From the NCBI GenBank assembly GCA_012032285.1, contig JAAURJ010000021.1:1-46022 (forward strand): a DNA stretch of 46,022 nucleotides, written 5' to 3'. The notes below the pieces were generated by a model that was given only the letters and a program-made list of their open reading frames with translations, had not been told where the DNA came from and did no database searches. This document shows positions 5,067 to 39,649 of the stretch, in pieces. Made by a program: the position numbers and the translations under genes. Source of the stretch: Sphingomonadales bacterium (GTDB lineage: Bacteria; Pseudomonadota; Alphaproteobacteria; Sphingomonadales; Sphingomonadaceae). The number at the start of each line of letters is the position of its first letter. Within the stretch, counting starts at the first letter, position 1.

Positions 5067-5128
5067 TATGATCGAATCTGCTACAGTAATGATTGATAAT
5101 AATCAAATTTGATCGACAGGAAACCGGT
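5067..5128. promoter_or_regulatory. Divergent promoter region with operator-like inverted repeat (5091-5107)
   Basis: These 62 bases separate the lactonase operon from the kinase operon. Within them, TTGAT-N4-ATCAA forms an inverted repeat at about 5094-5107. The 17-mer starting at 5091 recurs with 14 of 17 identical bases at 8487-8503, in front of the next gene block. A shared regulator site is inferred. No regulator gene is present in the window. Confidence 0.45.
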
Positions 5129-6400
5129 TTGTTATCGAGAATGTTCGGATGCATCGCAGATGATTTCACCGGGGCAACCGATATCGGGGCCTTGTTGGCG
5201 CGGCGCGGAATGCGGGTCGCTGTTTTTGTCGGATTACCCGTCGGCGATCATATGGATACCAAATTGGATGCCATCATCATTGCGCTCAAAAGCCGTACGA
5301 TAGAGGCGGAGCTTGCCGTGGAGCAGTCGCTTGCGGCTGCAAAATGGTTGAAAGAGGCAGGCGCACAATCGCTCTATTTCAAATATTGTTCCACTTTCGA
5401 TTCGACTGATCGCGGCAATATAGGTCCGGTTGCGATGGCGTTGGCCGAATTTTGGGATGAAGCCCATGTGCTGTTCAACCCGGCTTTTCCTGAAAATGGC
5501 AGGACGGTTCGCAAGGGCCATCTTTATGTTTATGGGCAACCGATTAACGAAACCGGGATGGCGCATCATCCTTTGACTCCAATGCGCAATTCAAATCTGG
5601 TTGATGTTTTGGGGGCGCAGCTTGACGGTCAGCTTGTCGGGCTTGTCGATCATGAAGTCATAGAAAAAGGGGTTGAATCTGTATCGCGCACCATCCTTAA
5701 CGGCCCCCATTTCCAGATTGCAGACACAGATGCAGACGGTGATTTGCAAGTGATTGCAAAAGCGGCAAAGGAATTGCGCTTTGCAACCGGTGGTTCTGCA
5801 TTCGGTGCGGCATATGCTGGGGAACGATCGGCGGCCCAGACGTCTTTGGCTGCGTATTTCCCCTTGCCTCCCAATGACAGTAAAACCGTGATTTTGGCAG
5901 GAAGCTGTTCCGAGGCAACCTTGCGCCAAATCGCGGCGATACCGGATGACATTCCACATATTCGCCTTGATGCCCATATAGTGGCCGCTCAAAAAAGCCA
6001 TGCAGGCCGATTGGGAGCAGCGGCGCAAACAGCGCTGGAGGAACATGATAGCGTTTTGATCAGCTCTTCTGTTGCCGCGAATATATTGAAAAATGTGCAG
6101 GTCTCATTGGGAGATGCAAATGCGGGCAGCATGATCGAAGAGGCATTTGCCGATATTGCATCTGCGCTTTTTGAAACCGGTCAGCGTATCTTCATTATCG
6201 CGGGCGGGGAAACGTCGGGCGCGGTTGTAGAGCGGCTTTGCGCAAACCAATTGTTGATCGGTCCAGAAATAGCACCCGGCGTTCCATGGTGCTATAGTCC
6301 CGCAGGAGGCGGGCTTTGGCTTGCGCTTAAATCAGGAAATTTCGGTGACGACAATTTTTTTATAAAGGCACGTGCCGTGTTAAGGACGCCCATAATATGA
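5129..6400 (+). CDS. DUF1537 four-carbon acid sugar kinase (3-oxo-tetronate kinase-like)
   Basis: The N terminus carries the family signature 'CIADDFTGATD' followed by 'ALLARRGMRVAVFVG'. The C-terminal nucleotide domain has 'IAGGETSGAVVERL' and 'GVPWCYSPAGGGLWLALKSGNFG', the kinase signature of DUF1537. The length of about 420 residues is normal. Known members phosphorylate 3-oxo-tetronates (OtnK), 2-oxo-tetronates or 3-oxo-isoapionate with ATP. The class II aldolase gene overlapping the end makes an OtnK/OtnC pair most likely, giving dihydroxyacetone phosphate plus CO2. The start is uncertain: TTG at 5129 has AGGAAA five bases upstream, while ATG at 5141 has no clear ribosome binding site. 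I favour TTG. The enzyme is cytoplasmic. Confidence 0.85.
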   Translation: MLSRMFGCIADDFTGATDIGALLARRGMRVAVFVGLPVGDHMDTKLDAIIIALKSRTIEAELAVEQSLAAAKWLKEAGAQSLYFKYCSTFDSTDRGNIGPVAMALAEFWDEAHVLFNPAFPENGRTVRKGHLYVYGQPINETGMAHHPLTPMRNSNLVDVLGAQLDGQLVGLVDHEVIEKGVESVSRTILNGPHFQIADTDADGDLQVIAKAAKELRFATGGSAFGAAYAGERSAAQTSLAAYFPLPPNDSKTVILAGSCSEATLRQIAAIPDDIPHIRLDAHIVAAQKSHAGRLGAAAQTALEEHDSVLISSSVAANILKNVQVSLGDANAGSMIEEAFADIASALFETGQRIFIIAGGETSGAVVERLCANQLLIGPEIAPGVPWCYSPAGGGLWLALKSGNFGDDNFFIKARAVLRTPII

Positions 6401-7035
6401 CCCCCGAAGAAATAACTGCGCGAGAACAGATAGTGATAGCAGGGGCGGCCCTCACGGCCCGCGGTCTCGCGCATGGTACGGCCGGGAATATCAGCATAAG
6501 GCTTGATGACGGTATTCTTGTTACACCAACGAACAGCTCGCTTGGCACATTGGATGCGGCGCGGCTGACAAAGCTGGATTTTAACGGCACATATGTTTCG
6601 GGCGATCTTCCGTCCAAAGAGGGGTTCATGCATTTGGCCTCTTATCAGCGCAGACCGCAAGATAGCGCGGTGGTGCATCTGCATTGTTCGCACAGCGTAG
6701 CGGTATCTTCGCTGGCCGATATAGATGCGGACAATCCGATACCGCCCATTACGCCCTATTTTGTGATGCGCGTAGGCAAGGTGCAAATGCTTCCCTATTT
6801 CCGTCCGGGCGACAGGGCGCTTGCGGATGCAATCGCATCGGTCGATCCTGCGCGTCATGCCGTCTTGCTGGCCAATCACGGTCCTGTTGTATCGGGTCAT
6901 TCGCTGAATAACAGTATCGCCGCCATTGAAGAATTGGAGGAAACGGCCAAGCTGTTCCTTCTGCTTGGCGGGCGCGCCGTTCGAACGTTAAATGCTGATC
7001 AATTGGCTGATTTGGCCCATCATTTCCCATCATGA
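6397..7035 (+). CDS. Class II aldolase/adducin family, 3-oxo-tetronate 4-phosphate decarboxylase-like (OtnC type)
   Basis: This 212-residue protein has class II aldolase features: 'HGTAGNISIRL' near residue 28 (phosphate-binding loop), 'TPTNSSLG', 'SKEGFMH' containing the catalytic-type Glu, and the zinc-binding 'VVHLHCSHS' with a further His in 'LLANHGPVV'. The SKEG-type motif is typical of OtnC, which decarboxylates 3-oxo-tetronate 4-phosphate. The ATGA overlap with the kinase gene stop argues for coupled translation and a shared pathway. AAGGA lies upstream of the start. A fuculose- or ribulose-phosphate aldolase would be the alternative, but the kinase partner favours OtnC. Confidence 0.85.
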   Translation: MTPEEITAREQIVIAGAALTARGLAHGTAGNISIRLDDGILVTPTNSSLGTLDAARLTKLDFNGTYVSGDLPSKEGFMHLASYQRRPQDSAVVHLHCSHSVAVSSLADIDADNPIPPITPYFVMRVGKVQMLPYFRPGDRALADAIASVDPARHAVLLANHGPVVSGHSLNNSIAAIEELEETAKLFLLLGGRAVRTLNADQLADLAHHFPS

Positions 7036-7056
7036 ACTTTAAGGGGTAATCTATCT

Positions 7057-7359
7057 ATGTACGTCGTAACTGTAGAATTTGATGTGTTTGACGAACACAG
7101 GGCTACTTTTCTGCAAGCCGTTAAACAACAGGCGAAAGATTCGCTGGACCGTGAAGCGGGCTGCCACCATTTTGACATATGCAGCATCGAAAACGGCGAC
7201 GACGAGATTATTTTTCTGTATGAGCTTTATGACGACCGTGCGGCATTCGACCTCCATCTGGAGAGTGCACATTTTTTAAGCTTTAATGAAAAAACATCCC
7301 CTTGGACACGCAATAAGACGGTGCGCTGCGGAATGCTTGAGCAAGGAACAGCCGAATGA
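7057..7359 (+). CDS. ABM-domain (antibiotic biosynthesis monooxygenase fold) small protein
   Basis: This 100-residue ferredoxin-like dimeric alpha/beta barrel protein of the ABM family has the characteristic 'REAGCHHFDIC' and 'YELYDDRAAFDLHLESAHF' blocks. Relatives include YgiN-type quinol monooxygenases and LsrG-type isomerases, which act on small oxo-acids or phosphorylated dicarbonyls. It sits between the decarboxylase and the dehydrogenase and overlaps the latter by four bases, so it belongs to the sugar-acid branch. A role as an isomerase for an oxo-tetronate intermediate is possible and would be inference. AAGGGG lies upstream of the start. Confidence 0.75.
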   Translation: MYVVTVEFDVFDEHRATFLQAVKQQAKDSLDREAGCHHFDICSIENGDDEIIFLYELYDDRAAFDLHLESAHFLSFNEKTSPWTRNKTVRCGMLEQGTAE

Positions 7360-8444
7360 GCAAAACATTCCGCATCGCTGTTTTGCCGGGCGATGGAATT
7401 GGTCCTGAGGTCACTGCGCCCTGCCTTGCAATATTGGACAAGGTGGCGAGCCAAAGCGATGGCGCGTTCGCATTGGAATTTCAAAATATTGACGCAGGTG
7501 CGGCTTATTATGCGCAACATGGCCTGTCGTTACCAGATGCCGGAATGACCTCCGCCGCAAAAGCCGATGCGATATTGCTTGCCGCTATGGGTTTGCCGTC
7601 GGTGCGCTATCCCGATGGCACGGAAATCGCGCCGCAACTCGAACTGCGCGAGGCGTTTCAGCTTTATGCTGGCGTTCGGCCTATTCGCACAATTGGTGGC
7701 GTTCCTTTACCGCTAGCCGATCCAAGGGGGCAATCGCTGGATATTGTTTTGGTCAGGGAATCGACAGAAGGCCTGTTTGCAAGCCGCGGCAAAACCTTTG
7801 TGGCCGATGATGACAGCTATGCAACGGATGAGATGCGTATTTCACGTGATGTTTGCGAACGGCTTTTCGATTTCAGCTTCCGGCTTGCCCGCGAACGCAA
7901 GGCGCGGGGACGTGCAGGCCGCGTGACCTGTATCGACAAGGCCAATGTTATCGGCAGCCTTGCCTATTTCCGTAAAATATTCCTGGAACGGGCCGCGGCC
8001 TTTCCTGATATTGAAGCTGACTTTGCCTATGTCGATGCGATGGCGTTGAACTTGGTCAAACGCCCTTGGGATTATGACGTTCTGGTCACCGAAAATATGT
8101 TTGGCGATATTTTGTCCGATTTGGGGGCTGCGTTAATGGGCGGATTGGGAATGGCGCCATCGGCGGATATTGGCGATCATCAGGCGGTCTTCCAACCCTG
8201 CCATGGAAGTGCGCCGGATATTGCCGGGCAGAATAAGGCCAATCCAAGCGCAATGGTCCTTTCAGGCGCAATGATGCTGCAATGGTTGGGCGAAAAGCAT
8301 GGAGTATCGCAGGCTCAACTCGCAGCGCAGCGGATCGAATCTGCCGTGGCAAAAGCATTCGCCGATGGAACTTTGTTGCCGGGTGAATTTGGCGGCACGG
8401 CTTCGACCAGCGAAATCGGCAAAGCAATATTGCATTGCCTTTGA
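7356..8444 (+). CDS. Isocitrate/isopropylmalate dehydrogenase-family decarboxylating or beta-hydroxyacid dehydrogenase
   Basis: This 362-residue protein starts with 'VLPGDGIGPEV', the N-terminal signature of the IDH/IPMDH/tartrate/D-malate dehydrogenase family. It also has 'VRESTEGLF' near residue 132, 'DKANV' (catalytic Lys) and the metal-binding C-terminal block 'VTENMFGDILSDL'. NAD-binding 'HGSAPDIAGQNKANP' is intact. It is unlikely to be leuB because it sits in a sugar-acid operon, overlapping the ABM gene and following OtnK/OtnC-like genes. In this position it could oxidise a C4 or C5 hydroxyacid (tartrate-, threonate- or erythronate-like) to the 3-oxo acid used by the kinase. This would replace the 6PGDH-family LtnD of known pathways. 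The family is certain, the substrate inferred. Confidence 0.82.
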   Translation: MSKTFRIAVLPGDGIGPEVTAPCLAILDKVASQSDGAFALEFQNIDAGAAYYAQHGLSLPDAGMTSAAKADAILLAAMGLPSVRYPDGTEIAPQLELREAFQLYAGVRPIRTIGGVPLPLADPRGQSLDIVLVRESTEGLFASRGKTFVADDDSYATDEMRISRDVCERLFDFSFRLARERKARGRAGRVTCIDKANVIGSLAYFRKIFLERAAAFPDIEADFAYVDAMALNLVKRPWDYDVLVTENMFGDILSDLGAALMGGLGMAPSADIGDHQAVFQPCHGSAPDIAGQNKANPSAMVLSGAMMLQWLGEKHGVSQAQLAAQRIESAVAKAFADGTLLPGEFGGTASTSEIGKAILHCL

Positions 8445-8535: not shown

Positions 8536-9675
8536 GTGGGTAAAATAAGGATCGGAATGGTTGGCGGCGGTGAAGGCGCGTTTATTGGCGCTGTTCATCG
8601 CACGGCGCTGGCGATTGATGGGCGGTGCGAACTTGTTTGCGGTGCGCTGTCATCGACCGCTGATAAAGCAAAACGTTCCGGCCTTGCTATCGGCCTTGCT
8701 GATGACCGGTCCTATTCTGATTACCGATCGATGCTAACAGCAGAGGCGGCGCTACCCGAAGAAATAAGGATGCAGGCGGTTGCCATCGTAACGCCCAATC
8801 ATGCGCATTTTGATGTGGCCATGGCTGCGCTCGATGCCGGTTTCCATGTCTTTTGCGAAAAACCGATGGTCATGGATATGACACAGGCACAGGCACTGGC
8901 GAGCAAGGTCCGCGAAACCGGTCTGGTCTTTGGCCTTGCCCATACATATGCAGGCTATCCATTGGTGCATCAGGCCCGGTCGCTGGTCGCGGCAGGTCGG
9001 CTTGGTGCGATCCGCAAAATCATTGTGGAATATCCGCAAGGCTGGTTAGCTAGGATGGAAGAAGGCGGCGATAACAAACAGGCAGACTGGCGCACCGATC
9101 CTGCGCGTGCGGGTGGCGGCGGTGCCATAGGTGACATCGGAACCCACGCGCATCAATTGGCGGAAATGATTTCGGGCGAGGCGGTCACCGAAGTCCGCGC
9201 GGAGCTGACCCGCTTTGTCGATGGCCGCAGGCTTGATGATGATGCCGAGGTTGCATTTCGCTTGTCGGGCGGCGGCAAGGGGCATTTGCTCGCTACGCAG
9301 ATTGCAATCGGCGAAGAAAACGGCCTGCGCATTCGCGTCCATGGGGAAAAGGCCAGCCTTAGATGGTTGCAAGAAGAACCCAATAGCCTTTGGTTTCAAC
9401 CGATTGATCAACCGGCGCAGTTATGGCGTGCCGCCGCACCTTATCTCGATGATCATGTCGCTGCCCTGTGCCGCACCCCAATGGGCCATCCCGAAGGGTA
9501 TTTGGAGGCGTTTGCAACGCTTTATCTTTTGTTCGCAGACCGGGTTGCGGGCAAAGCCGGCAACGATAAAATCCTGTTCCCGGATATTGATACCGGTCTG
9601 CGCGGAATGGCGTTTTTAGAAGCGGTCATCGCCAGCGACCATGACGGCGGTATTTGGAGGAAAATCAATGTTTGA
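8536..9675 (+). CDS. Gfo/Idh/MocA family oxidoreductase
   Basis: This 379-residue enzyme starts at GTG (8536), six bases after a strong AAGGAGAGAG ribosome binding site. The N-terminal Rossmann motif is '[12 protein letters not shown]', the Lys-Pro motif is 'FCEKPMVMD' near residue 115, and the C-terminal domain holds '[13 protein letters not shown]' with the typical catalytic Asp/His. This 'GGGEGAFIG...HR' subgroup is common next to xylose-isomerase-like TIM barrels, exactly as here, where the two genes overlap by eight bases. It is cytoplasmic. Probable role: NAD(P)-linked oxidation or reduction at a ring carbon, possibly C3, of a sugar or glycoside. Confidence 0.87.
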
Positions 9676-10750
9676 AAACACCAATCGCGGCGAAAGCGCC
9701 GGTATTAAAGGGCCTGCTATTTTTCTGGCCCAATTCATGTCTGATGAAGCACCGTTCAATAGCCTGTCCTCTGCGGCCCGGCAAATGGCAGACTTTGGCT
9801 ATGTCGGGGTGCAAATTCCCAGTTGGGATTACCGCGCCATCGATCTGGAAAAAGCTGCGCAAAGCAAGGATTATTGCGACGAGATAAAGGGCATATGCGC
9901 CGATGCCGGCGTCACCATTACCGAACTTTCCACTCATCTTCAGGGACAGCTTGTGGCTGTTCATCCGGCTTATGATGTGATGTTCGACGCATTCGCCCCG
10001 GCACAGGTGCATGGCAAGCCGAAGGAAAGGCAGATATGGGCCGTCGATCAAATGATGAAAGCGGCCAAAGCCAGCCAGAATATGGGCCTAACCGCTCATG
10101 TAAGCTTTTCAGGCGCGTTGCTATGGCCAACGCTTTATCCATGGCCGCAACGCCCGGCAGGTCTGGTCGAAGAAGGCTTTGCCGAGCTGGCAAAACGTTG
10201 GACCCCGATCCTGAATGCTTTTGATGAAGCGGGTGTCGATGTCTGCTATGAAATCCATCCCGGTGAAGATTTGCATGACGGCATCACGTTTGAAATGTTT
10301 TTGGAAGAGGTGAAAAACCACCCGCGATGCAAAATCCTGTATGATCCCAGTCATTTTATTCTCCAACAGCTCGATTATCTAGAATTTATCGATATTTATC
10401 ATGATCGCATTGGTATGTTCCATGTCAAAGACGCCGAGTTTAATCCCACCGGACGACAAGGCGTCTATGGCGGCTATCAGGCATGGGCCGACAGGGCGGG
10501 ACGGTTTCGTTCGCTGGGCGATGGACAGATTGATTTTCGCGGTATCTTTGCGAAGCTGACCCATTATGGCTTTGACGGGTGGGCCGTCGTTGAATGGGAA
10601 TGCGCACTGAAGGACAATATGCAAGGCGCACGCGAAGGCGCCAAATTTGTTGCCGACCACTTAATAAAACCAGCGGTGGGCGCGTTTGACGATTTTGCCG
10701 GCGGGACCAGCGACCGTGACACCAACCGCCGGATATTGGGTTTAGATTAA
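9668..10750 (+). CDS. Xylose-isomerase-like TIM-barrel sugar isomerase/epimerase
   Basis: From ATG 9668, preceded by GGAGG at about 9656, this is a 360-residue AP-endonuclease-2/xylose-isomerase-like barrel. Metal-ligand candidates appear in order: 'CYEIHPGED' (Glu), 'ILYDPSHF' (Asp, His), 'FHVKDAEF' (His, Asp) and 'AVVEWEC' (Glu). It overlaps the upstream dehydrogenase by eight bases. Members of this superfamily catalyse isomerisation, epimerisation or, in 3-keto-glycoside pathways, beta-elimination. The tight pairing with a Gfo/Idh/MocA enzyme supports action on an oxidised (keto) sugar. No signal peptide is visible. The specific reaction is unknown. Confidence 0.82.
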   Translation: MFENTNRGESAGIKGPAIFLAQFMSDEAPFNSLSSAARQMADFGYVGVQIPSWDYRAIDLEKAAQSKDYCDEIKGICADAGVTITELSTHLQGQLVAVHPAYDVMFDAFAPAQVHGKPKERQIWAVDQMMKAAKASQNMGLTAHVSFSGALLWPTLYPWPQRPAGLVEEGFAELAKRWTPILNAFDEAGVDVCYEIHPGEDLHDGITFEMFLEEVKNHPRCKILYDPSHFILQQLDYLEFIDIYHDRIGMFHVKDAEFNPTGRQGVYGGYQAWADRAGRFRSLGDGQIDFRGIFAKLTHYGFDGWAVVEWECALKDNMQGAREGAKFVADHLIKPAVGAFDDFAGGTSDRDTNRRILGLD

Positions 10751-14295: not shown

Positions 14296-17200
14296 TTATT
14301 GCGTGAGCAAACGCACCGGCCCCATAAGGCCAGAGGCGAGAAGTGGTGAATCGGTTTTATAAGGGTTGATTTCCACATTTGCCACAGCGGCCGCGCCCGG
14401 TTGCTTATCTCCTATCATACGGTTCACCCATAGGTTGGCAACCACAATGCGCAGATTATTTTCGCCGCGCTGCACATATTGGGTAATGTCGATGGTGAAG
14501 GGCGCGGTCCAAGCGACCCCGGCACTTTTTCCGTTTATAAAAACCTCGGCAATTTCCCCGACACTGCCCAGATCAAGCAGGATGCGGCCTTTGGGTTTAT
14601 CAGCAATCGTAAACGCACGTGTATAGCTGGCTGTCCCGGAAAAAATTTGAGCGCAGGTTCTTCCAGCTCCGTCCAGGATTTCAGCGTATCAATGGCAAGC
14701 GGCACCGTTTTGTCATCGGGGCCGGGATGACGAAAAGTCACGGACCAACCGCCTGATAGCGCGGCGATTTCCTGCGCGTCTCGCCTTTTTACGCTGCGCT
14801 TCTGGCTTTTGGCGGATTGGCGAAAAACAACAAATTGTGCGCCATTGGGCGGAAGATGAAGTGGCACTATCGTACGGTCGCCTTCAATATGATAGGCTGC
14901 GTCGCTGATGGTGCCGGTGATCGCGTCCCAAATCTCCGGTGCGCGGCCCGTTATGTGAAAGGATGCCTCCAGCTTTTGGGGTTCTGCATTCTCCGCGCAG
15001 ATAAAGAATAGCTCTCCTTCTTTCAAAACGCGGTGCACGAATGAAACGGGCGCATTGTTTCCGGTTGCCGAATAGGTGAAGGCGGGCGGGAACACCAATG
15101 GCAGCGCCTCCGCTGAAGGTGCTGCCTTTGCTCCATTTTGCCACAATGCCCCGGCCATTCTGGTAAAAAGCGCTTGATCATCGGCTTTGCTCGGCGTGCT
15201 TAGCGGTTTGGGGCCGATGATGGAGACACCGGCAGCCGCAAAGGCGGTCAGTTTTTTGAGGACGGGGAGGGTCATCTGCGTCACCGACGGATCAATGACC
15301 AACGCACGGTAGCTAACCCCCGATGGCGCATAAATCTTGCCGTCTTTGGCAGTGACATCGTTCAAAATCGCATCGGCGTTGATAAAATCATAGGCATAGC
15401 CATCGGGCACTTCGGGTGCTCGTTTGACAAACAATTCTGTGACATTGTCGCCCTGCCCGTAAAAATAGGCGACATCAGCGGCAAATTGGCCCTGCTGTAG
15501 CAAATGAGACGAACGCGAGAGATAACCAATCCACGCATGGGCCATGCCCGCCCATGTTTCCTTGCGGGTGAACCACTGTCCAAACTGCCCAAGGCTAAGC
15601 CCCGGCCCAATGCTGTCATCGGGCTGGTGGACCGATGTATGCACCACCACACGGTTCAGGCCATTGGCCATCATACGGTCCGCCACGGGCTTTAAGTGGT
15701 GCGGGGCATAGGCGTGCGATCCGCGCGGGCGGCCCGATGCCGTGAAGCATTCGGCGGCGGCGATATTTTGGCCATAGATATGCGCGACCGACGCGGATTC
15801 GCGAATATCGGCATCACGCATCAGTCGTGACGAATGCGGAAAATCAACCTGGGGCATCCATGTTGCGCCCATCGGGATGTCGGCATATTTTTTTGCCTGC
15901 ATCCCGTCACCAATGAAAGCGCGGCGATCTTCATGTCCCTCGCCATAGCGCTTCATCCCCCGGTCGTGCAGCGCCCGGCTGATCTCACCATAATGTTCCT
16001 CGGCCATTAATTGCCCAAGCAGATTGCGGAAATCCCACAGGAAACGATCGCTTTCTTCTGCGCTGCCTACCACATGGCCCGCCAATACCGGCATCCACGG
16101 GCGCAGATCATAACCGGCAAAAGCTTTGAATTTGGCTTCCATATCGTCGGTCCAGTTGGCGGGGCCAGCCTCGTAACTGTCGGTCAGCAAGTGGGTAAGC
16201 CCGCGCTTGCCCATAAGCCCGGTGCCAAGCGCTGCTTCATAAGCGCTAAGATAATCATTAACATAGGCACGCACATGAACACGGTTCAGCTTGTCGACCT
16301 CAAGCCCGGTCAGCTCGTCCAAAGTCGGCCCGTTGGTTTCGCCCGTCAGGCCATAGCCGATGCGCAGGATTTGCCAGCGACCAGCAGGCGGTGTCCAATC
16401 AAGCTTGCCATCGGCTGCCATGAACGATGTTACATCAATCACATTTTCGGGCTTGATCGTCAAATTTGCTGCAACCGGCGGGCTGGCCAATTCATGCAGG
16501 CTAGGTTCATCCCAAAAACCGGCCTTGTCTTCATACAGATGCACCCGCGGCGCTTCACGCAGCTCCAGCTGTATGATTTCATGCTCGGTGCGGAATGGCC
16601 GATCTCCGAAAAATCCGCTTGTTAAGCGGGCATTTGGATCGATCCGGAATTGGAAACGGAAATGACGCGCGGTTACCTGTGGCACCATGATGGTGCGGGG
16701 AATGAGGTTGATACCGGGCAGTTCGGCCAGCCGTGTGTAAGTGACGCCATCGTCGCTTGTTTCAATCCAGCCTGCGGGTTTGGGCGCTTCGCCAAATTGG
16801 CCATGACCACCGGCCATGAACAAAGTGAACGACCGCACTGTACGCGGTTCGTTGAAGCTATATTCTATCCAGACTGAGCTGTCTTTTTCACGATCATAGG
16901 GCAGCTTAACGGCGGATTCCAAATCACCGTCCGACAATGTGGCACCATTCAACGGACCACGGTTTGAACGGATCACCGCGTGCTTGTTCAGCGGCTCATC
17001 GTCCCAATCAACACGGTAAGCCAAAGCCATGATGTCCCGGTAATAGCTTTTGGGGATTGTGGGATGGGTTTCGGCTGTCCATTTTGCTTCGACATGGCGG
17101 GAACCGAACGGGCCAATGGCGTCGGATGGTTGGGCTAAGGAAATGGCAATTGGTGCGCCGCCATCGACCAATGTTTCGGTCCAAACCAGCCGTTTCATGG

Positions 17201-17626
17201 CTTGTTCGGGCTTGACCCAAGGGCCGCCTGTTTGGCTCCATCCCGGCGAGCCTGCAATGGTAAATTCGAACCCTTGGCCGTCGGCCTTTTCGACTGCATA
17301 GCGAAACTATCGGCCCATTCCGGCGTGCGGCCGACGATACGCTTTTGGACCACTTGCGGAGTGCGCAGCGAGGCATCAAAATTTTGCACGCCGCCAATTC
17401 CCGTGCGCTGCATCCAGGCAAAATCCGCATCAATGCCCTCGCGCGTTACATTGCCGTTCATCCAATGCCACCAGACCCGGGGTTTGGCGCTATTGGGTGG
17501 ATTGAGAAAACCGGATTCCAGCGATAGCGGACCATTTGCCTGAGCCGCTTTTACTATCATCGGCAGGCCTGCAGCAAAAGCGGCGGAGCTTTTCAATAAT
17601 GCGCGCCGTGAAAGATTGGATGACAT
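14296..17626 (-). CDS. GH106-like alpha-L-rhamnosidase, Tat-exported; two single-base frameshifts (about 17303 and 14640-14645)
   Basis: The start is ATG 17626, eight bases after AGGAG. The N terminus 'SRRALLKSSAAFAAG' is a twin-arginine signal. The frame breaks at about 17303; inserting one base gives 'FRYAVEKADGQGFEF...SPGWSQTGGPW' leading straight into 'MKRLVWTETL'. It breaks again in the A-run at 14640-14645. One more base restores 'FSGTASYTRAFTI', an 'LGSVGEIAEVFING' beta-sandwich and the family ending 'SGLMGPVRL' with a stop at 14296. The restored length of about 1,110 residues is normal for GH106. It has the 'AAAECFTAS' block with the catalytic-type Glu, and 'SYEAGPANWTDDMEAKF'. It is the last gene of the GMC operon. 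It probably removes alpha-L-rhamnose in the periplasm. Confidence 0.85.
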
Positions 17627-17652
17627 AAAAATGGCTCCTGTTAAGACGGTTT

Positions 17653-18555
17653 TCAAGAAATTGGGGGCAATGCACGGGCCAGACGTGCGACATCTTCTAT
17701 GGCCTGCCCTTCATTGCCATCGCCGGGGCGACATTCCAGACTGATCGGGACATGGATCCCTTCAGCCTGTGCATTGCGAAGCAAAAAGGCAAAGTCTATC
17801 TCGCCAGTGCCCGGTTGGCGGCGATCCGGGCTATCGGCCAATTGTAGATAACCACATTGGTCCGCGCCTTTTTTCAGATTATCCCACAAATTGCCTTCGG
17901 CACGCTGCATATGAAACAGATCCCAGTTTATCTTTAGGGCCGGGGAATCAATCTCCCGGCAGATGGCGAGCGCGTCTTTGTGACCGTAAAGGAAATAGCC
18001 AGGATGATTATAGGGATTGAACGGTTCGATCAGCAGCCGGATACCCGCTTCGGCAAAATAGGGTAGGGCAATTGCCACATTATCACGATAGCGTGCCAAA
18101 CGGTCCTGCGGCGTCATATCATTAACGATCAGATGACCGACAAGTGTGCAGTGCAGCGCCCCAAGCTGCGCCGTGTTTTCGATCGTCAGCTTTGCCGCTT
18201 CGCGCACTTGCTCCGCTGTTGCCGCGCTCATTTCCGGCAGGCTCGATGTGCAATGGATGATGGTAATGCCCGCATCTGTGGCCCGTTTGCGCAAGATGGC
18301 GGGATCCTTGTCCGCTGCGGTGCCAATGCTCCACATTTCTGCCTGAACAAAACCGCTCCGCGCGGCCATGTCGATCCGTTGCAGAAAAGGCAGATTAGTC
18401 CACCACATCGGCAAATTGACAACAAAACGGGCATGGTCTGCCTTACGCGGCACTGTGGCTATTGCCGGCATGGCATAGAATGCACTTGCTGCACCGGCCA
18501 TACCGGCAAAGGCACGGCGTGTCAGTTTCGTGAAAGGATCATGCTGTCCGCTCAT
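17653..18555 (-). CDS. Tat-exported hydroxypyruvate-isomerase-family (Hyi/OtnI-like) TIM-barrel protein
   Basis: This 300-residue protein has a twin-arginine signal, 'TRRAFAGMAGAASAF', followed by an AIA-type cleavage region near residue 33. The rest matches the Hyi fold: 'LLIEPFNPYNHPGYFLY' near residue 155 (catalytic Glu), 'INWDLFHMQRAEGNL', 'QLADSPDRRQPGTGEIDF' and 'SLECRPGDG' (second catalytic Glu). Cytoplasmic Hyi and OtnI normally lack any signal, so export is unusual. It follows the GMC flavoprotein by 72 bases and is itself followed by a rhamnosidase. A periplasmic enzyme acting on a keto-glycoside made by the GMC complex is the best inference. Confidence 0.82.
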   Translation of the reverse strand: MSGQHDPFTKLTRRAFAGMAGAASAFYAMPAIATVPRKADHARFVVNLPMWWTNLPFLQRIDMAARSGFVQAEMWSIGTAADKDPAILRKRATDAGITIIHCTSSLPEMSAATAEQVREAAKLTIENTAQLGALHCTLVGHLIVNDMTPQDRLARYRDNVAIALPYFAEAGIRLLIEPFNPYNHPGYFLYGHKDALAICREIDSPALKINWDLFHMQRAEGNLWDNLKKGADQCGYLQLADSPDRRQPGTGEIDFAFLLRNAQAEGIHVPISLECRPGDGNEGQAIEDVARLARALPPIS

Positions 18556-18627
18556 TGCTTTCGGCGCTCAACCCGCGCCATCTTGCACTGCCCTTTTGGC
18601 TATTGTCATAATCAACTCTTTTCCAAG

Positions 18628-20322
18628 CTATATCTTCCCTTCCTGTAATAGCTCGACGGCATGGGCCGATGCACGCGCCGATAAAGCCATATAGGTCAAA
18701 GAGGGATTCTGACAGGCGCTTGATGTCATCGCTCCGCCATCGGTGCAGAACAGATTCGGAATATCGTGCGATTGGTTCCACGCATTGAGCACCGATGTTT
18801 TGGGATCGCGGCCCATGCGCACCGTCCCCATTTCATGAATACCCTTTCCAGGTTCGGCTGCTTCGGCATTGCTGTGGACGACTTTATAACCGAGTTTTTC
18901 GCACATCTCCCTAGCATCAGCGCTGATCTTTTCGGCCATTTTTCTTTCATTCTCGCCATGCTCGCATTCGATATGGGGGATGGGCATACCCCATGCATCC
19001 TTCTTGGCCGGGTTCAACGTGACACGGTTATGAGCATAAGGCAGCATCTCGCCAAAACCAGAGATGCCCAGTTGCCAGCCGCCGGGACCGGCCAGACTGT
19101 CTTTCCATTCGCCTCCAATACCGGGGCGGTTGCTGCCCCTTTCCCAATCTTTGCGCGATATACTGCCTTGATAACCATAGCCGCGAACGAAATCCAAACC
19201 TTCATCGTCCAGATTTCTGAATCGCGGAATATAAAGGCCATTGGGACGGCGGCCAAATGTCGTGCGATCTTCAAAACCGCTTACTTCGGCTGCGGTCGAT
19301 ATTCCGAACAGATGATCCATCAGGTTTCGGCCTAGCTGATCAGAGCTATTTGCCAAACCGCGCGGGGCGGCTTCATTGGCACTGTTCAGCAGGATTTGCG
19401 CACTGGTGATGGCCGATGCATTCAGGAATACCATACGCGCGGTATAGGTTGTCGGCTTCTTTGTGACGCTATCGACGACCTGAACGCCCGCCGCGCGGCC
19501 CGTTTTTGGATCGGTGATAACCTTCATGACAACAGCGTTCGGCACAAGTGTCATCAACCCTGTTTGCTTGGCGGCTGGCAGGGTTGCCGATACGCTGGAA
19601 AAATAAGCGCCAAAACTGCAACCTCGCGCACAATAATTACGAAATTGACAGGCACCGCGGCCCAGCGACTCTTGTATTTTTGTTACTTCGCTCAAATTGG
19701 CATTGCGCCCCGGGATGACTTTGCGGCCATCAAATGCTTGCGCCACACGGTTGGCAAAATCTTGCTCAACACAGTTGAGGCCCATGGGTTTTAGAAACTG
19801 GCCATCGGGTAATTGGGGCAGCCCCTCTTTCGTGCCGGAAATTCCGGCAAAGGTTTCCACATGGTCATACCATGGCGCTAGGTCGGCATAGCGGATAGGC
19901 CAATCTACGCCATGACCGTCTTTTTTATTGGCTTCAAAGTCGATATCGGAAAGCCGATAGCTTTGCCGCGCCCACATCAATGACCGGCCACCTACATGAT
20001 AGCCCCTTATCCAAAGGAATGGCTTGTCTTTGGGTGTGGTATAAGGATGCTCGCTATCTTTCACCCACAAATGTTTTGTCGCGGTGTTAAATCCGCCCCA
20101 TTGGGACTGGATGGCGTAGTCGCGCTCGGCTTCTTCCTGAGGGATTTTATTCCCATTTTCGAGCTCCCAAGGATTGTCAAAATCCCGGTAGTCTGTTGTC
20201 GGATCGATATTGCGACCCCGTTCAAGAACAACCACCTTCAAACCCCGTTCGGTCAGTTCTTTTGCGACCCAGCCGCCGCTCATACCGCTGCCCACTATAA
20301 TGGCATCAAAATCGCCGCTCAT
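18628..20322 (-). CDS. GMC-family FAD oxidoreductase, glucoside 3-dehydrogenase/gluconate 2-dehydrogenase-like catalytic subunit
   Basis: This 564-residue flavoprotein begins 'AIIVGSGMSGGWVA' (FAD Rossmann loop, residues 8-20) and has GMC block 'GYHVGGRSLMWARQ'. The motif Cys225-x5-Cys231-x3-Cys235 resembles the iron-sulfur-binding Cys set of bacterial glucose and glucoside-3 dehydrogenases of the GMC type. The C-terminal catalytic region contains 'IHEMGTVRMG' and 'CQNPSLTYMALSARAS'. It has no signal peptide of its own. The four-base overlap with the Tat-exported small subunit gene upstream fits the known hitch-hiker export model. GAGGAGG lies six bases before the start. Predicted role: periplasmic oxidation of a sugar or glycoside hydroxyl, likely C3, with electrons passed to a cytochrome not encoded here. 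Confidence 0.85.
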   Translation of the reverse strand: MSGDFDAIIVGSGMSGGWVAKELTERGLKVVVLERGRNIDPTTDYRDFDNPWELENGNKIPQEEAERDYAIQSQWGGFNTATKHLWVKDSEHPYTTPKDKPFLWIRGYHVGGRSLMWARQSYRLSDIDFEANKKDGHGVDWPIRYADLAPWYDHVETFAGISGTKEGLPQLPDGQFLKPMGLNCVEQDFANRVAQAFDGRKVIPGRNANLSEVTKIQESLGRGACQFRNYCARGCSFGAYFSSVSATLPAAKQTGLMTLVPNAVVMKVITDPKTGRAAGVQVVDSVTKKPTTYTARMVFLNASAITSAQILLNSANEAAPRGLANSSDQLGRNLMDHLFGISTAAEVSGFEDRTTFGRRPNGLYIPRFRNLDDEGLDFVRGYGYQGSISRKDWERGSNRPGIGGEWKDSLAGPGGWQLGISGFGEMLPYAHNRVTLNPAKKDAWGMPIPHIECEHGENERKMAEKISADAREMCEKLGYKVVHSNAEAAEPGKGIHEMGTVRMGRDPKTSVLNAWNQSHDIPNLFCTDGGAMTSSACQNPSLTYMALSARASAHAVELLQEGKI

Positions 20323-20816
20323 GCTGCCTCCTCCTCAAGCTTTACGCAGGGGTCATAACGACCTGGAACCAATTCAAATTTAGCGATTTCGGTTTGGTAT
20401 CTTTCGCTGCCAAAATAGCCGAGCATCATTAACTCTTTAAGCATTTTCCAATCTTTATTATCTTTGCCATAAGCGGCGGCATCAAATTCGCTTAGGGCAG
20501 CAGTGGCCTTCGCATCGTCCATTTTTTCAAGCGCGACCAGATGCGGATTCCCGATTAGAGAGAGCAATTTTCCGCGGGTCTCTTTGCTGGCCCAATTGGC
20601 GATCAGCTTTTCCACAAAACCAGCAGCATCGACATCGCTCGCACCGAATGTTTTGGTTCGCGGGATCATGATTTCACCGATCCTCTCTAGCCGCTTTTTG
20701 ACATCGGCAGCCATGCTATATGGTGCATCCTGCCATGAGCAGCCAGGCAGTGCAGTGAGCGCAGCAGCGCCGCCCACAAGCAATATCGCTTCCTTCAGGA
20801 AGTCCCGTCGATCCAT
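20319..20816 (-). CDS. Gluconate 2-dehydrogenase subunit 3-family protein (Tat signal, hitch-hiker subunit)
   Basis: From ATG 20816 (GGAGAGGAG upstream), this 165-residue protein starts 'MDRRDFLKEAILLVGGAAAL' with a twin-arginine motif and then 'ALPGC', a lipobox-like Cys near residue 26. The remainder is the alpha-helical subunit-3 domain ('IGEIMIPRTKTFGASDVDAAGFVEKL', 'LMMLGYFGSERY'). In LacA/LacC-type glucoside 3-dehydrogenases this small subunit carries the GMC subunit through the Tat pathway. It is the first gene of the minus operon, and the GMC gene overlaps it by ATGA. Confidence 0.85.
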   Translation of the reverse strand: MDRRDFLKEAILLVGGAAALTALPGCSWQDAPYSMAADVKKRLERIGEIMIPRTKTFGASDVDAAGFVEKLIANWASKETRGKLLSLIGNPHLVALEKMDDAKATAALSEFDAAAYGKDNKDWKMLKELMMLGYFGSERYQTEIAKFELVPGRYDPCVKLEEEAA

Positions 20817-20913
20817 AGATTCTCCTCTCCTATTCCGGCATCCGAATTTTCTTCTGGCGCCCGTGTCATTTATTGTGCATAGTTTTTGCGCAAAAGCAAT
20901 AGAAAGCAATCAA
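20817..20913. promoter_or_regulatory. Divergent promoter region with 12-bp perfect palindrome (20884-20895)
   Basis: These 97 bases separate the GMC operon (minus) from the ThuA/GH105/lyase operon (plus). TTTTGCGCAAAA at 20884-20895 is a perfect palindrome suited to a dimeric regulator that could control both directions. The AATAATCA motif of the other promoters is absent. Confidence 0.4.
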
Positions 20914-21692
20914 ATGCAATCACTATTCATGATCAGACTTTTTCTTGCCGCCGCTTTGTTTTCGGCGCTGTTCCCGGCCATGGGCGCACAAGCTCGCCAA
21001 GCCAAAGCAGAAACCAAGCAACAAGCGGTGCTTATTTTTTCACACACCACCGGATTCCGGCACAAGTCCGTTGAGACAGGGGTGGCGGCTGTGGCCGAAA
21101 TGGTTCGCGCAAAAGCAATGCTGCCCGTGGCGAGCGAAGATATTTCGATATTCACAAAAGGGAATTTGTCAGCATATCGGGCAATTATTTTTGTCAGTAA
21201 TACTACCAATCCAAAAGAAGAAGCATCGGACTGGTTGACCGGAGACGCAGCGGCAAATTTTAAGGCTTGGTTGGGTAAAGGCGGCTCTGTGGTTGGAATT
21301 CATGCCGCATCGGATTCGCATTATTTTCAGCCATGGTATGGAAAATGATAGGCGGCTGGTTCCAAAGCCACCCGCGCGGAACCTATGCCGCAACGCTCAA
21401 GGTTGAAGATGCCTCGCATCCGTCCACCAAAGTCATTCCAAAAAGCTTTATTAGAACCGATGAATGGTATGCGTTCAAGGATTTTGACCCCGATGTGACT
21501 TTGCTCGTCACGCTAGACCCGCTTTCAATTGGTCAACCAGCAGGCCCACCATGGCCGGTCAGCTGGTCACGTGAATATGGCGGCGGCCGGATATTTTATA
21601 CTTCGATGGGGCATACTGTTGAAAGTTTTTCTGAGCCGGTTTTTCTGAAACATATCGAGGGCGGTCTCGATTGGACCTTAGCAAAGAAGTAA
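20914..21692 (+). CDS. Exported ThuA-domain (trehalose-utilisation-like) protein; frameshift in A-run at 21342-21345
   Basis: ATG 20914 (or 20929) opens a signal peptide ending near 'MGAQA'. The ThuA fold follows: 'VLIFSHTTGFRHKSVETG', 'YRAIIFVSNTTN', 'GGSVVGIHAASDSHYFQPWYGK'. The frame then stops, but one extra A in the AAAA run at 21342-21345 joins it directly to 'MIGGWFQSHP', 'DEWYAFKDFDPDV' and 'PWPVSWSREYGGGRIFYTSMGH', the normal C-terminal half. The restored length is about 259 residues. ThuA-domain proteins occur in 3-keto-sugar pathways and near uncharacterised glycan genes. Being first in the operon with GH105 and the lyase, it probably processes a keto- or lactone intermediate in the periplasm. 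Confidence 0.8.
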
Positions 21693-21735: not shown

Positions 21736-22907
21736 ATGAAATCCGTTTCGGCTGTTGCCGCTGCGATCATATTGGCGGCGCTTGCCGGTTGCACGGCAAA
21801 CTCCGCCGTTCGGACACCACTTAGTGCTGCATCTTCTTCTGTTGAACAATCAATCATTGATCAGATGACCAAAGTTGCCGACTGGCAATTGGCGCATATG
21901 ACGTCCGAAAACTATGCCATCCGCAAACCGTCAAGGCAGACTTGGGTAACGCGCGGTGGGTTATGGGCACTTTCTATGTCGGTCTTGCGGACGCGGCTGA
22001 TGCTTTGGAAAGGCCAGATTATGACAAGGCGCTGAAGGATATTGCTGTTGCGGATGGCTGGCGCTTGGGTGACCGGTTGACGCACGCTGATGATCATCTT
22101 GTTGGCTTGATCCATGCCCGTTATGCTATTCGGGAAAATAATCTGGATTATATTGCGCCTGCACGCGCAAGTTTTGATCAGATTATTGCCAAAAACCCTC
22201 AGGTTTCTCTGGAATTTATTGAAGTTCCCGGTGTTGAAAGCGAATGTCAAGAGCGCTGGTGCTGGGCAGATGCCCTTTATATGGCCCCTGCGGCTTGGAT
22301 GGCGGTGGGCGTGGCGACAGGTGATGATCGCTATATTGCCTATGCCGACAAAGAGTTCTGGGCTGCCGCCGACTATCTTTATGACAAGGAAGCGAAACTG
22401 TTTTTCCGCGACAGCCGTTTCTTTCCCCAACGCGGACCCGATGGCGAAAAGGTTTACTGGGCCCGCGGAAATGGCTGGGTTTATGGCGGGATCGTCAATA
22501 TCCTGCGCACAATGCCCCAAAAAGATCCGCGGCGGGCCCGTTATATCAAATTGTTCAAAGAAATGTCGGATGCCCTGGTCGCTGTTCAACAGGATAATGG
22601 ATTCTGGCACACGTCGCTTGCTGCTCTGCGCCCCGAACCGCCCGAAACCAGCGGTACGGGCTTTTTCACTTACGGACTGGCTTGGGGCGTGAATGAAGGT
22701 ATTTTGAAAGGCCCGGAATATGTCCGCGCGGCACGATTGGGCTGGGCCGGGTTAACCCAATATGTCGATGCAGATGGCCGGCTGGGTTATGTGCAACAAG
22801 TAGGCGACCGGCCCGGTGATGTCCGGCCGGGCGATATGCAATTTTATGGTGTCGGTGCTTATCTGCAAGCGGGCGGCCAAATGTTGAAATTGGAGAGCCG
22901 GAAATGA
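21736..22907 (+). CDS. GH105-family unsaturated uronyl hydrolase (lipoprotein); frameshift at 21917-21918
   Basis: The start ATG 21736 follows AGAGAGGAA by about nine bases. The N terminus is a lipoprotein signal ending 'LAGC'. The frame breaks after 'SENYA'; one extra C in the CC at 21917-21918 joins it to 'HPQTVKADLGNARWVMGTFYVGL', a normal GH105 N-terminal helix. The (alpha/alpha)6 barrel continues with 'THADDHLVGL', 'WCWADALYMAPAAW' (catalytic Asp region), 'KVYWARGNGWVYGG' and 'ETSGTGFFTYGLAWGVN'. GH105 enzymes hydrate and cleave the 4,5-unsaturated uronic acid that polysaccharide lyases leave at the non-reducing end. The overlapping lyase gene downstream matches that job. Restored length is about 390 residues. 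Confidence 0.87.
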
Positions 22908-24313
22908 ATAAACGGATCCATAGCGCAGTTTGCATGGCATTGCTGTCTAGCGCTGCGCCACCAATATCTTTGGCGCAAACCGGGGATAATGCACCGTCCG
23001 CTGCCACGGAGTTACCGAAACTGGTCGAATGGGATGACACGAAATTCCGAAGCAGGATCGAGGCCATCGACCTGACATGGGCCGGGCACCGCGCCCGCGC
23101 CGATATTCTAATGACTGAGGATAATCAGCTTATCGGCTATTATGATGCGAACCGCCAGTTGACGATCGCCTACCGCAAAGGATTGGGCAATCCATGGAAT
23201 TATCACAAGCTGCCTTCTTGGCTGGGTTGGGATAGTCACAACAGCGTGGCCCTTGGCGTTGATGAGGCCGGTTATATCCATGTTATGGCCAATATGCACG
23301 CGGACCCGATTGTCTATTTCCAATCGGAAAAACCATGGAATGTGCGCAGCATTGTGCAGCATAAAGGGCTGGTCAATGACGCCTATGAGGAGCGTGTTAC
23401 TTATCCGCATTTCATGAATGACAGACAAGGCCGCCTGATTGCGAAATTTCGCAGCGGCGGCAGCGGTAATGGTATAGAATTATATCATCGTTTTGATACC
23501 AAAACAAAAAGCTGGTCGCGTATGCATGGCGGCGGGCCGCTTGTCGATGGCGAGGGCGAACGCAATGGTTATTTCAAAGGCCCCGATCTTGGTCCCGATG
23601 GCTATTATCATCTGACGTGGGTGTGGCGCGAGACGCCGTCTGCGAATACCAATCATGATCTATCCTATGCCCGCAGCAAGGATCTGGATAATTGGGAGAC
23701 ATCAGACGGCAAACCGCTGACGCTACCGATGACGCTGTCAACAAGCGAGATTATCGAACCTGTGCCAGTGGGCGGCGGGATATTGAACGGACAGCACCGG
23801 CTGGGCTTTGACAGCGATAAAAAACCGATGATCAGCTATTATAAATATGATCAAAAAGGTGACACGCAAATCTATCTTTTGCGGAAAACCGCACAGGGAT
23901 GGAAATCGGACCAGATTTCCAACTGGACAGGATCACGGCAGGAATTGGACCGGCAAGGCAGCCTCGCTAATACGGTATCGGTTTCAGCCGATCCTGAAAT
24001 AGCGGCAGATGGCTCAATTACAGTGCAGGCCATACGCGACGGCGTAATTACGCAGTGGCAGGTTAATGCAAAAACGAACAAAGTGATGGCCGTAACAACG
24101 ATCAGCGATCCATTGCCCGCGCAAATCCTGTCGGAAAAGGCAAAGCGGGAAATGCCGTTTCATTTCGCCAAAGCAACCGGAAAAGGAACGGGGGTGTTTG
24201 CCGATTATGACTGGTATCTGACATGGCACGCATTACCCGCAAATCAGGATGTCGCCCGCGATGATATTCCTTCACCCTCTGTGCTCAGATTGATCCCTGT
24301 GCCCAAAAAATGA
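22904..24313 (+). CDS. Secreted BNR-4 propeller, PL24/PL25-like (ulvan-lyase-type) polysaccharide lyase
   Basis: This 469-residue protein has a signal peptide ending near 'SLAQT' (residue 25). It matches the BNR-4 seven-bladed propeller family through 'WDSHNSVALGVDEAGYIHV' and 'NMHADPIVYFQS', in which His112 and His132 lie 20 residues apart. 'ERVTYPHF' (Tyr167) and 'IAKFRSGGSGNG' (Arg183) follow. A paired-His plus Tyr/Arg arrangement is the catalytic plan described for PL24 and PL25 ulvan lyases, which cut Rha3S-GlcA/IdoA by beta-elimination. The gene overlaps GH105 by ATGA, a lyase/unsaturated-uronyl-hydrolase pair. Activity on another rhamnose-uronate polymer cannot be excluded, as BNR-4 includes other families. 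Confidence 0.75.
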   Translation: MNKRIHSAVCMALLSSAAPPISLAQTGDNAPSAATELPKLVEWDDTKFRSRIEAIDLTWAGHRARADILMTEDNQLIGYYDANRQLTIAYRKGLGNPWNYHKLPSWLGWDSHNSVALGVDEAGYIHVMANMHADPIVYFQSEKPWNVRSIVQHKGLVNDAYEERVTYPHFMNDRQGRLIAKFRSGGSGNGIELYHRFDTKTKSWSRMHGGGPLVDGEGERNGYFKGPDLGPDGYYHLTWVWRETPSANTNHDLSYARSKDLDNWETSDGKPLTLPMTLSTSEIIEPVPVGGGILNGQHRLGFDSDKKPMISYYKYDQKGDTQIYLLRKTAQGWKSDQISNWTGSRQELDRQGSLANTVSVSADPEIAADGSITVQAIRDGVITQWQVNAKTNKVMAVTTISDPLPAQILSEKAKREMPFHFAKATGKGTGVFADYDWYLTWHALPANQDVARDDIPSPSVLRLIPVPKK

Positions 24314-24691
24314 TATTGGCATAAAGCGTTCAACCGGCAATTGGCGCGAAACAATACCCCAATTGGGCGACTTTAATCATGCAATGGGTATGAATGGCGG
24401 CGGAGACCGGGTCGCCATTCGATCTGGATATGCTGCATACGCGCACGGCAGAGGTGAGCAACGATCTTCAAACGGCCGATTCTGATCGCAAGGTTATCTC
24501 GGAATTTTTGGACGCATGGGCTAATGCAGATAACAGGGAGGATAGGGATTGAAAGCAAAGGCCCGAAGGGTAACCGGCTTTACCAGCATCAGCCACTGAA
24601 CTGCTACAGGCCGGCTTGTATTAATCCCTAAATGGTTGCGGCATATTGAGCCAGTGACCAAGAAGCAGGCTCTGACGCTCTGCGCAATTCA
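24314..24691. other. Intergenic stretch with inverted repeat and a doubtful 52-codon ORF (24394-24552, plus)
   Basis: This 378-base gap separates the glycan locus from the core genome. CAATTGG at 24338-24344 is repeated inverted as CCAATTG at 24359-24365, with no following T-run. A plus-strand ORF from 24394 to 24552 encodes a 52-residue acidic peptide ending 'AWANADNREDRD' that looks coding-like in composition but has no ribosome binding site or recognised family. It may be the remnant of a deleted gene. Nothing else is evident. Confidence 0.3.
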
Positions 24692-39493: not shown

Positions 39494-39649
39494 GATATGG
39501 CCTTTTTCCTGCTGCTGTGTTTTTTGTGATATTAAGGCGCGATGGCGGCGCTTGCATAGTGCAAAATATGGCAGGACTCTTGACGCGGAGTCACTCATCG
39601 GCGCAAAAGGGCTTTGGTTAACGATATTCATTTAAGGCAGTATAATCCC

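Follow-up and report, generated by a model that had tools for sequence, protein, structure and literature searches.

Gene content of the locus

We examined a 46,022-base stretch of DNA from a Sphingomonadales bacterium that forms the whole of contig C41 (JAAURJ010000021.1) in a 2.78-Mb genome of 96 contigs, and that we refer to as the window. It contains a gene cluster for the predicted oxidation of glycosides, in which three minus-strand genes follow one another in the order SUB3-GMC-TIM. SUB3 (20319..20816; Gluconate_2-dh3, PF13618, 40.8 bits, the sole match of this family in the genome) probably starts at 20816, where MDRRDFLKEAILLVGGAAALTALPGC is by inspection a twin-arginine (Tat) signal with a lipobox-like LPGC, and it is a candidate membrane anchor and export escort. 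Its stop overlaps by four bases the start of the gene for a GMC flavoprotein (18628..20322; PF00732/PF05199), a candidate catalytic subunit of a pyranoside 3-dehydrogenase with no evident signal peptide, and after a gap of 72 bases comes a TIM barrel of the Hyi/OtnI type (17653..18555; PF01261) with the Tat signal TRRAFAG. Divergent from these three, on the plus strand, is a gene for a ThuA-domain protein (20914..21692) with a Sec-type signal by inspection, which lies in two frames with a break near 21345 and matches PF06283 on both pieces.

An original prediction, made from the sequence alone, had described here a GMC protein with a C-x5-C-x3-C motif and no signal, overlapping a Tat-signal SUB3, together with a Tat-exported TIM barrel and a signal-peptide ThuA protein. 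The domain matches and inspection bear out the dehydrogenase pair. The barrel is present with its Tat signal, but its gene lies outside the interval 18555..21692 that had been assigned to the module, which begins at the barrel's start codon. ThuA has both the domain and the signal but is not one open frame.

The GMC protein carries the motif as CQFRNYCARGC, and its cysteines (C225/C231/C235) are invariant in a 27-row alignment, as is H496-E497-x-G499. The motif, together with the overlapping SUB3 gene, had been read as the arrangement of LacA/LacC-type enzymes, but it is not diagnostic, as GMCs of the sugar-dehydrogenase type from Pantoea and Gluconobacter share it, and we rejected it as proof of a LacA-type enzyme. 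These sugar-dehydrogenase GMCs lack HEMG and have HI(I/M)G at the active-site His, whereas in the window GMC this residue lies in a GIHEMG context (EPGKGIHEMGTVRMG) matching the motif of the FAD-dependent glycoside oxidoreductase (FAD-GO), the latter being read from primers (PMC4650693). The same source gives His493 as the catalytic base of FAD-GO, which oxidises the 3-OH. By sequence search, the best PDB match of the window GMC is the large subunit of fructose dehydrogenase, at 154 bits only.

A tree of 32 rows places the window GMC together with seven others from its genus and family, with a support of 91/89, which is under the strong threshold. A 100/98 branch sets the larger assemblage that includes it apart from two cytochrome-type sugar dehydrogenases and an ETF-linked GMC. 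The gluconate/fructose-sorbitol dehydrogenase type is represented here by two rows, L097 and L099, from Pantoea and Gluconobacter operons of the small-subunit/GMC/cytochrome type, and the window GMC does not group with them, so that a placement among gluconate 2-dehydrogenases, which would have spoken against the original prediction, is not what the tree gives. Long branches in the tree make the deep positions of L057b and L096 unreliable.

LacB is a cytochrome c, the third component alongside LacA and LacC. Scanning the window for CxxCH in open stretches of at least 80 codons, we obtained two hits only, at 4759 and 26373, and no such cytochrome-like gene beside the GMC. Nor did we find a DUF1080 3-keto hydrolase in the genome at E≤0.001 (as a control, 4 of 14 genomes match, Caulobacter included). 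The absence of DUF1080 had been claimed before and holds, and with no CxxCH gene beside the GMC a strict LacABC label fails on its checkable parts.

Conserved partners of the dehydrogenase

About 8 kb from the GMC gene lie two plus-strand genes that the original prediction had missed and that we regard as the strongest evidence. One (9641..10750) encodes a close homologue of a 2-hydroxy-3-keto-glucal hydratase, a TIM barrel that matches PDB 8ro4 over nearly its full length (residues 22-368 to 4-349; E 2.5e-165, 553 bits), and the other (8536..9675; PF01408) a Gfo/Idh/MocA oxidoreductase that is a candidate 3-keto-sugar reductase; neither has an evident signal peptide. The window Gfo is 49% identical to a Gfo adjoining a hydratase homologue on an Agrobacterium plasmid, and in relatives, too, Gfo adjoins the hydratase, both being conserved partners of the GMC there. 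Around related GMCs we fetched 20 regions, 11 of which contain the hydratase, and a Croceicoccus plasmid has a compact Gfo-hydratase-SUB3-GMC arrangement with ThuA nearby.

The same association is seen across 148 genomes, our own included, in which the GMC was called at E≤1e-120 (27 genomes) and the hydratase at E≤1e-60 (23 genomes). Both genes occur in 22 genomes, the hydratase only in 1, the GMC only in 5 and neither in 120 (Fisher p 2e-20), which places the hydratase in 22/27 genomes with the GMC and 1/121 without it, although such counts are not independent of kinship. The distance between the hydratase and a GMC is at most 10 kb in 16 genomes. This co-occurrence supports oxidation at C3.

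ThuA adjoins GMC/SUB3 in related loci as well. The synteny of all four genes that had been expected in relatives is seen only in part: SUB3-GMC is accompanied by an exported TIM barrel or by ThuA, but the full block of GMC, SUB3, Hyi-type Tat barrel and ThuA is present in no relative that we fetched.

On the Croceicoccus marinus plasmid (L092), two TIM-barrel/DUF6379 gene pairs (6993-8407 and 23170-24566) lie beside the GMC operon. Pairs of this kind are reminiscent of C-glycoside-cleaving enzymes.

Exported AtOGE-type barrels in relatives

In Agrobacterium, one operon for 3-keto-glucosides encodes a flavin-dependent glycoside dehydrogenase, a TIM-barrel beta-eliminase (AtOGE), a putative hydratase and a Gfo reductase; the dehydrogenase and AtOGE were assayed, while the hydratase step is preliminary (PMC10628242). 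Loss of two His residues abolishes AtOGE activity. Scanning regions of related genomes, we found Tat-signal barrels beside many GMCs, and SUB3-GMC with a Tat TIM barrel is a recurring layout. One such barrel from the window's genus (L040) matches AtOGE (PDB 8bvk) at 74 bits and has its best matches to 8tcd/8tcs/8tct at 107-112 bits, entries named only sugar phosphate isomerase or similar, so that the label "AtOGE type" is partial. A literature search gave no relevant publication on 8tcd, 8tcs, 8tct, 8tdi or 8ro4. A 12-row alignment of these barrels shows no variation at the twin arginine or at H171-N-H173, D204, H230 and E268, the residues standing in the same order and at similar spacing as His132, His134, Asp163, His189 and Glu233 of AtOGE.

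At E≤1e-15, 25 of the 148 genomes have the AtOGE type. The GMC is present in 21 of these 25, and in 16 genomes an AtOGE-type gene stands no more than 150 bp from a GMC. Because these Tat barrels adjoin GMCs, many relatives appear to both oxidise and eliminate in the periplasm. In the genome of the window, the same query gave no match at E≤0.01, the 25 matching genomes serving as control; the Hyi-type barrel of the window occupies the AtOGE-type slot beside the GMC, as it does in L057 and L073.

Ten regions were inspected around GMCs of Robiginitomaculum/Caulobacterales-type genomes that carry the Hyi-type barrel. Three (L101, L102 and L106) have the complete set of Gfo, hydratase and SUB3 genes, an AtOGE-type barrel and three or four GMCs; the remaining seven have part of it, and in two of these DUF1080 or ThuA takes the place beside the GMC.

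Tandem arrays of three or four GMC genes occur in L101 (9058-14210), L102 (7436-12545), L106 (6601-13389) and L107 (58-5165), followed in all four loci by a Tat-signal AtOGE-type barrel. A single SUB3 lies ahead of them in L101, L102 and L106; in L107, where the contig starts with the first GMC, none was seen. These arrays suggest substrate diversification of the 3-dehydrogenase.

The Tat-signal Hyi/OtnI-type barrel

The window barrel has a Hyi/OtnI-type fold with the E-D-Q-E site, and it is nearest to Hyi/OtnI isomerases by sequence, profile and model, the nearest fold being 1k77. Its family scores are 132.4 bits for hydroxypyruvate isomerase (cut-off 353.45) and 126.3 bits for 2-oxo-tetronate isomerase (cut-off 325). 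We aligned 33 sequences, comprising the window barrel, those of 29 of the 35 loci found to carry relatives (L073 twice) and two further regions, and leaving out L080, L083, L084, L086, L087 and L089. Residues E142, D177, Q203 and E239 (fragment numbering; +35 for the full length) are invariant in all 33 rows, and the His of an NHPG segment is nearly so, at 90% or more.

Profile comparison places the barrel and the AtOGE type in the same superfamily with a probability of 98%, gapped at strand 5. Where AtOGE has its His residues, the window barrel carries Glu (the strand-5 ligand), Phe (two residues further along) and Gln (the strand-7 position). It has no match to 8bvk at E≤10. Neither 8bvk nor a CGE is among the 50 folds listed for it, an absence that we do not count as evidence.

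The 35 loci come from Hellea, Robiginitomaculum, other genomes labelled Caulobacterales, Verrucomicrobiota and a small remainder that includes two sphingomonads. A GMC relative is present in 29/35 of these genomes at E≤1e-60, and in all 20 of the subset G530-G549; at E≤1e-120 it is present in 23/35, compared with 27/148 among the relatives of the window, two genome sets that differ in taxa. The genomic association of the Hyi-type barrel with the GMC is strong. In three loci the barrel lies within the SUB3-GMC cluster (L056, beside SUB3, L057 and L073). In the locus tables used here, overlapping weaker hits were hidden and one neighbour-clustering table omitted open frames shorter than 100 amino acids; L109 and L110 are short contigs.

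Two simple replacement rules were considered and do not hold. That the Tat barrel generally replaces DUF1080 was rejected, as L073 has both and DUF1080 occurs in 9 of the 20 genomes G530-G549, the part of the barrel genomes that this search covered (the other 15 lay outside it). That the Hyi-type barrel simply replaces AtOGE is weakened by the 18 of these 20 genomes that match both.

In L062 (7897-11488), L063, L064, L065 and L070, from genomes of the Robiginitomaculum and Caulobacterales types, the Hyi-type Tat barrel stands inside a housekeeping block of what we take, from N-terminal sequences, to be dnaX-, ybaB- and recR-like genes, and in L067 it is followed by a gene of the gamma-glutamyltranspeptidase family.

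Polysaccharide context and split genes

By profile and PDB sequence searches, the left half of the window (~1-24.3 kb) reads as a single carbohydrate locus. Besides the genes above, it encodes two GH106 proteins, a GH88/GH105-type protein, BNR_4, DUF5060 and Kelch proteins, an MFS transporter, an SMP-30 protein, OtnK- and OtnC-like proteins, two Gfo/Idh/MocA proteins and two TIM barrels in all. One GH106 gene (14535..17656, minus strand), for an alpha-L-rhamnosidase with a Tat-like signal, is split into two frames between ~17195 and 17290 (PF17132, 736.9 bits, and 111.5 bits on the N-terminal piece). A GH88/GH105-type unsaturated uronyl hydrolase (21736..22907, plus strand; PF07470, 222.7 bits) also lies in two frames, with a break near 21900 inferred from the frames. 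Downstream on the same strand is a BNR_4 protein (22904..24313; PF15892) resembling the BT3686-type rhamnosidase or a rhamnose-glucuronate lyase. It scores 179.2 bits against the BT3686-type NCBIfam family, under the cut-off of 700, and matches PDB 5muk at 127.7 bits and 7esk at 64.1 bits; either a rhamnose-glucuronate lyase or an alpha-rhamnosidase is conceivable, the second being the better match, and the distinction would help to define the substrate. This context suggests rhamnose- or glucuronate-containing glycans as the substrate. The OtnK-like kinase, the OtnC-like aldolase and a gene of the isopropylmalate dehydrogenase family (5093-8444) also suggest that the locus handles a four-carbon acid. 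The right half of the window holds housekeeping genes such as ftsK, lolA, sigma-54 and ribD-type genes.

Frame splits thus affect the ThuA, GH105 and GH106 genes (20914-21692, 21736-22907 and 14535-17656). Apparently split genes also lie at 39614-41969 and 36022-37337, and ftsK and a CorC/HlyC gene are among those that look split. ftsK is normally essential. Because ftsK and the CorC/HlyC gene show the same kind of apparent break, we treat the breaks as technical, probably reflecting frequent small indels of assembly or sequencing origin; selective decay of the ThuA gene was rejected as the preferred reading, as the other two genes look split on the same contig.

A proposed oxidise-then-cleave route

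We propose that glycosides are processed here by an oxidise-then-cleave route, encoded within a rhamnose/uronate-type polysaccharide locus, and put the probability of this reading at roughly two in three. In this scheme, SUB3 would be exported by the Tat system and probably lipid-anchored, carrying the signal-less GMC protein along, and on the periplasmic side the pair would act on a pyranoside by oxidising its C3 hydroxyl. The Tat-exported Hyi-type barrel, as a metal enzyme of the proton-transfer type, would then act on the 3-keto glycoside in the periplasm, where it may prepare the bond for cleavage by epimerising or isomerising the glycoside, or may itself expel the C1 group; ThuA may contribute to this step. 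The product, a 2-hydroxy-3-keto-glycal, would enter the cell, where the hydratase would add water and the Gfo reductase would restore the sugar.

The gene identities, signals, conserved partners and catalytic residues can be read from the sequence, and we infer the C3 regiochemistry, the location, the substrate, the transport and the step of the barrel. C3 oxidation outside the inner membrane, as originally predicted, is supported by the hydratase and reductase partners, the catalytic-His motif and the tree. We favour the module-level reading, from periplasmic C3 oxidation to cytoplasmic hydratase and reductase, because several lines agree on it, a support that the role of the barrel does not have. 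Several observations weigh against the scheme. The window barrel lacks, by alignment, the metal ligands His132 and His189 and the catalytic His134 of AtOGE. Only 3/35 barrel loci adjoin a GMC (with flanks of 10 kb or less, many shorter), and in about ten Robiginitomaculum/Caulobacterales-type loci the barrel sits between dnaX/ybaB-like and recR-like genes, the rest lying among other genes. An AtOGE-type query matches 24/35 barrel genomes (E≤1e-15, some weakly) and 18/20 of G530-G549; because so many match both, the Hyi-type barrel would normally add to an AtOGE-type enzyme rather than replace it. To these come the kinship behind the co-occurrence counts, the lack of a cytochrome-like gene beside the GMC and the split ThuA gene.

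The alternatives differ mainly in what they assign to the barrel or to the dehydrogenase. The most serious, which we hold to be plausible if somewhat short of even odds, makes the barrel only an accessory periplasmic epimerase or isomerase of 3-keto glycosides, like the 3-keto-glucoside 4-epimerase YcjR, and leaves cleavage to ThuA or to spontaneous breakdown. Spontaneous loss of the aglycone has been documented (PMC4650693), so an eliminase could be dispensable. If the step is enzymatic, however, another enzyme must cleave, since the genome has no AtOGE-type match or DUF1080; ThuA and the Hyi-type barrel are the only exported candidates found in it, and the activity of ThuA is putative and its gene is split here. 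An epimerase/isomerase role and a substitute eliminase role of the barrel would both fit. The stronger version of the latter, in which the barrel founds a further class of periplasmic 3-keto-glycoside-cleaving enzymes that expel C1 with a two-glutamate epimerase metal site and the NHPG His, having taken the AtOGE-type operon slot in this lineage, seems to us unlikely. Cleavage of the 3-keto product by the TIM barrel, as the original prediction suggested, is possible, but the barrel is of Hyi/OtnI type, without the AtOGE His residues and with frequent AtOGE-type co-matches.

Two further explanations would detach parts of the locus from the route. The GMC-SUB3 pair could be a general sugar or alditol dehydrogenase of the gluconate, fructose or sorbitol type, with the hydratase and reductase serving another substrate. 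Its best PDB match and the C-x5-C-x3-C motif common to such enzymes would fit, but the 100/98 branch, HEMG instead of HI(I/M)G, the absence of an adjacent cytochrome and the strong association, among relatives, with the hydratase and with genes of the AtOGE type make this improbable. Still harder to maintain is a role for the barrel as an isomerase of 2-oxo-tetronate or hydroxypyruvate, alongside the OtnK/OtnC homologues (5093-7035; PF07005/PF17042 and PF00596), in four-carbon acid catabolism unrelated to the GMC. The best family matches and nearest fold of the barrel point that way, and these genes are in the window, but the scores are far under the cut-offs and the barrel has a Tat signal, in contrast to the OtnK/OtnC-like proteins, in which no signal is evident. 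The barrel is also a same-strand neighbour of GMC/SUB3, again in L056, L057 and L073, and 29/35 barrel genomes have the GMC. We hold this explanation to be the least probable of those considered. Taken together, the original prediction is partly confirmed in its observations and partly supported in its interpretation.

Comparison with known systems

The degradation of glycans through oxidation at C3 followed by elimination has recently been recognised as an alternative to the use of glycoside hydrolases. Our results suggest that in sphingomonads and in Hellea/Litorimonas-type bacteria its first steps are periplasmic, with at least two subfamilies of Tat TIM barrels, and that it finishes in the cytoplasm with hydratase and reductase. 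The locus gives a defined five-protein set, and its GH106/GH105-type setting allows the use of the route on rhamnose- or uronate-containing glycans to be tested. In the open-access text searched (passages, titles and the starts of abstracts) we found no description of a Tat-exported eliminase type beside a GMC or of an exported Hyi-type barrel.

Each known system shares part of this arrangement. The Caulobacter LacABC system likewise oxidises C3 in the periplasm by a dehydrogenase complex, with a transporter, two epimerases and a reductase nearby (PMC9007349), but the genome of the window lacks the DUF1080 hydrolase and a third component beside the GMC. The FAD-GO of Rhizobium sp. GIN611, likened here by motif, is a GMC with a GIHEMGT motif that was co-expressed with a small subunit (PMC4650693), and the window GMC has the small-subunit partner expected of the FAD-GO/GlycDH type, in the overlapping PF13618 gene. 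The rhizobial ThuA/ThuB proteins of the thuEFGKAB operon place a ThuA-domain protein in a 3-keto-sugar context (Ampomah 2013, as cited in PMC6683767), whereas the window ThuA is by inspection exported and stands with a GMC instead of ThuB. Unlike the Hyi/OtnI isomerases (PDB 1k77 and 3ngf; enzyme names from NCBIfam), the window barrel has a Tat signal, the NHPG His and the linkage to a GMC. The Agrobacterium GlycDH-AtOGE-AtHYD-Gfo pathway shares the flavin 3-dehydrogenase, the hydratase homologue and Gfo and the order of oxidation, elimination, hydration and reduction (PMC10628242). It differs in that the window barrel is of Hyi type with a Tat signal, in a genome with no AtOGE-type match, and in that the AtOGE homologue of the relatives has a Tat signal. 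The chemistry and the set of dehydrogenase, hydratase and reductase are already known, and the exported Hyi-type barrel is an uncharacterised subfamily that forms a variant partner for that chemistry.

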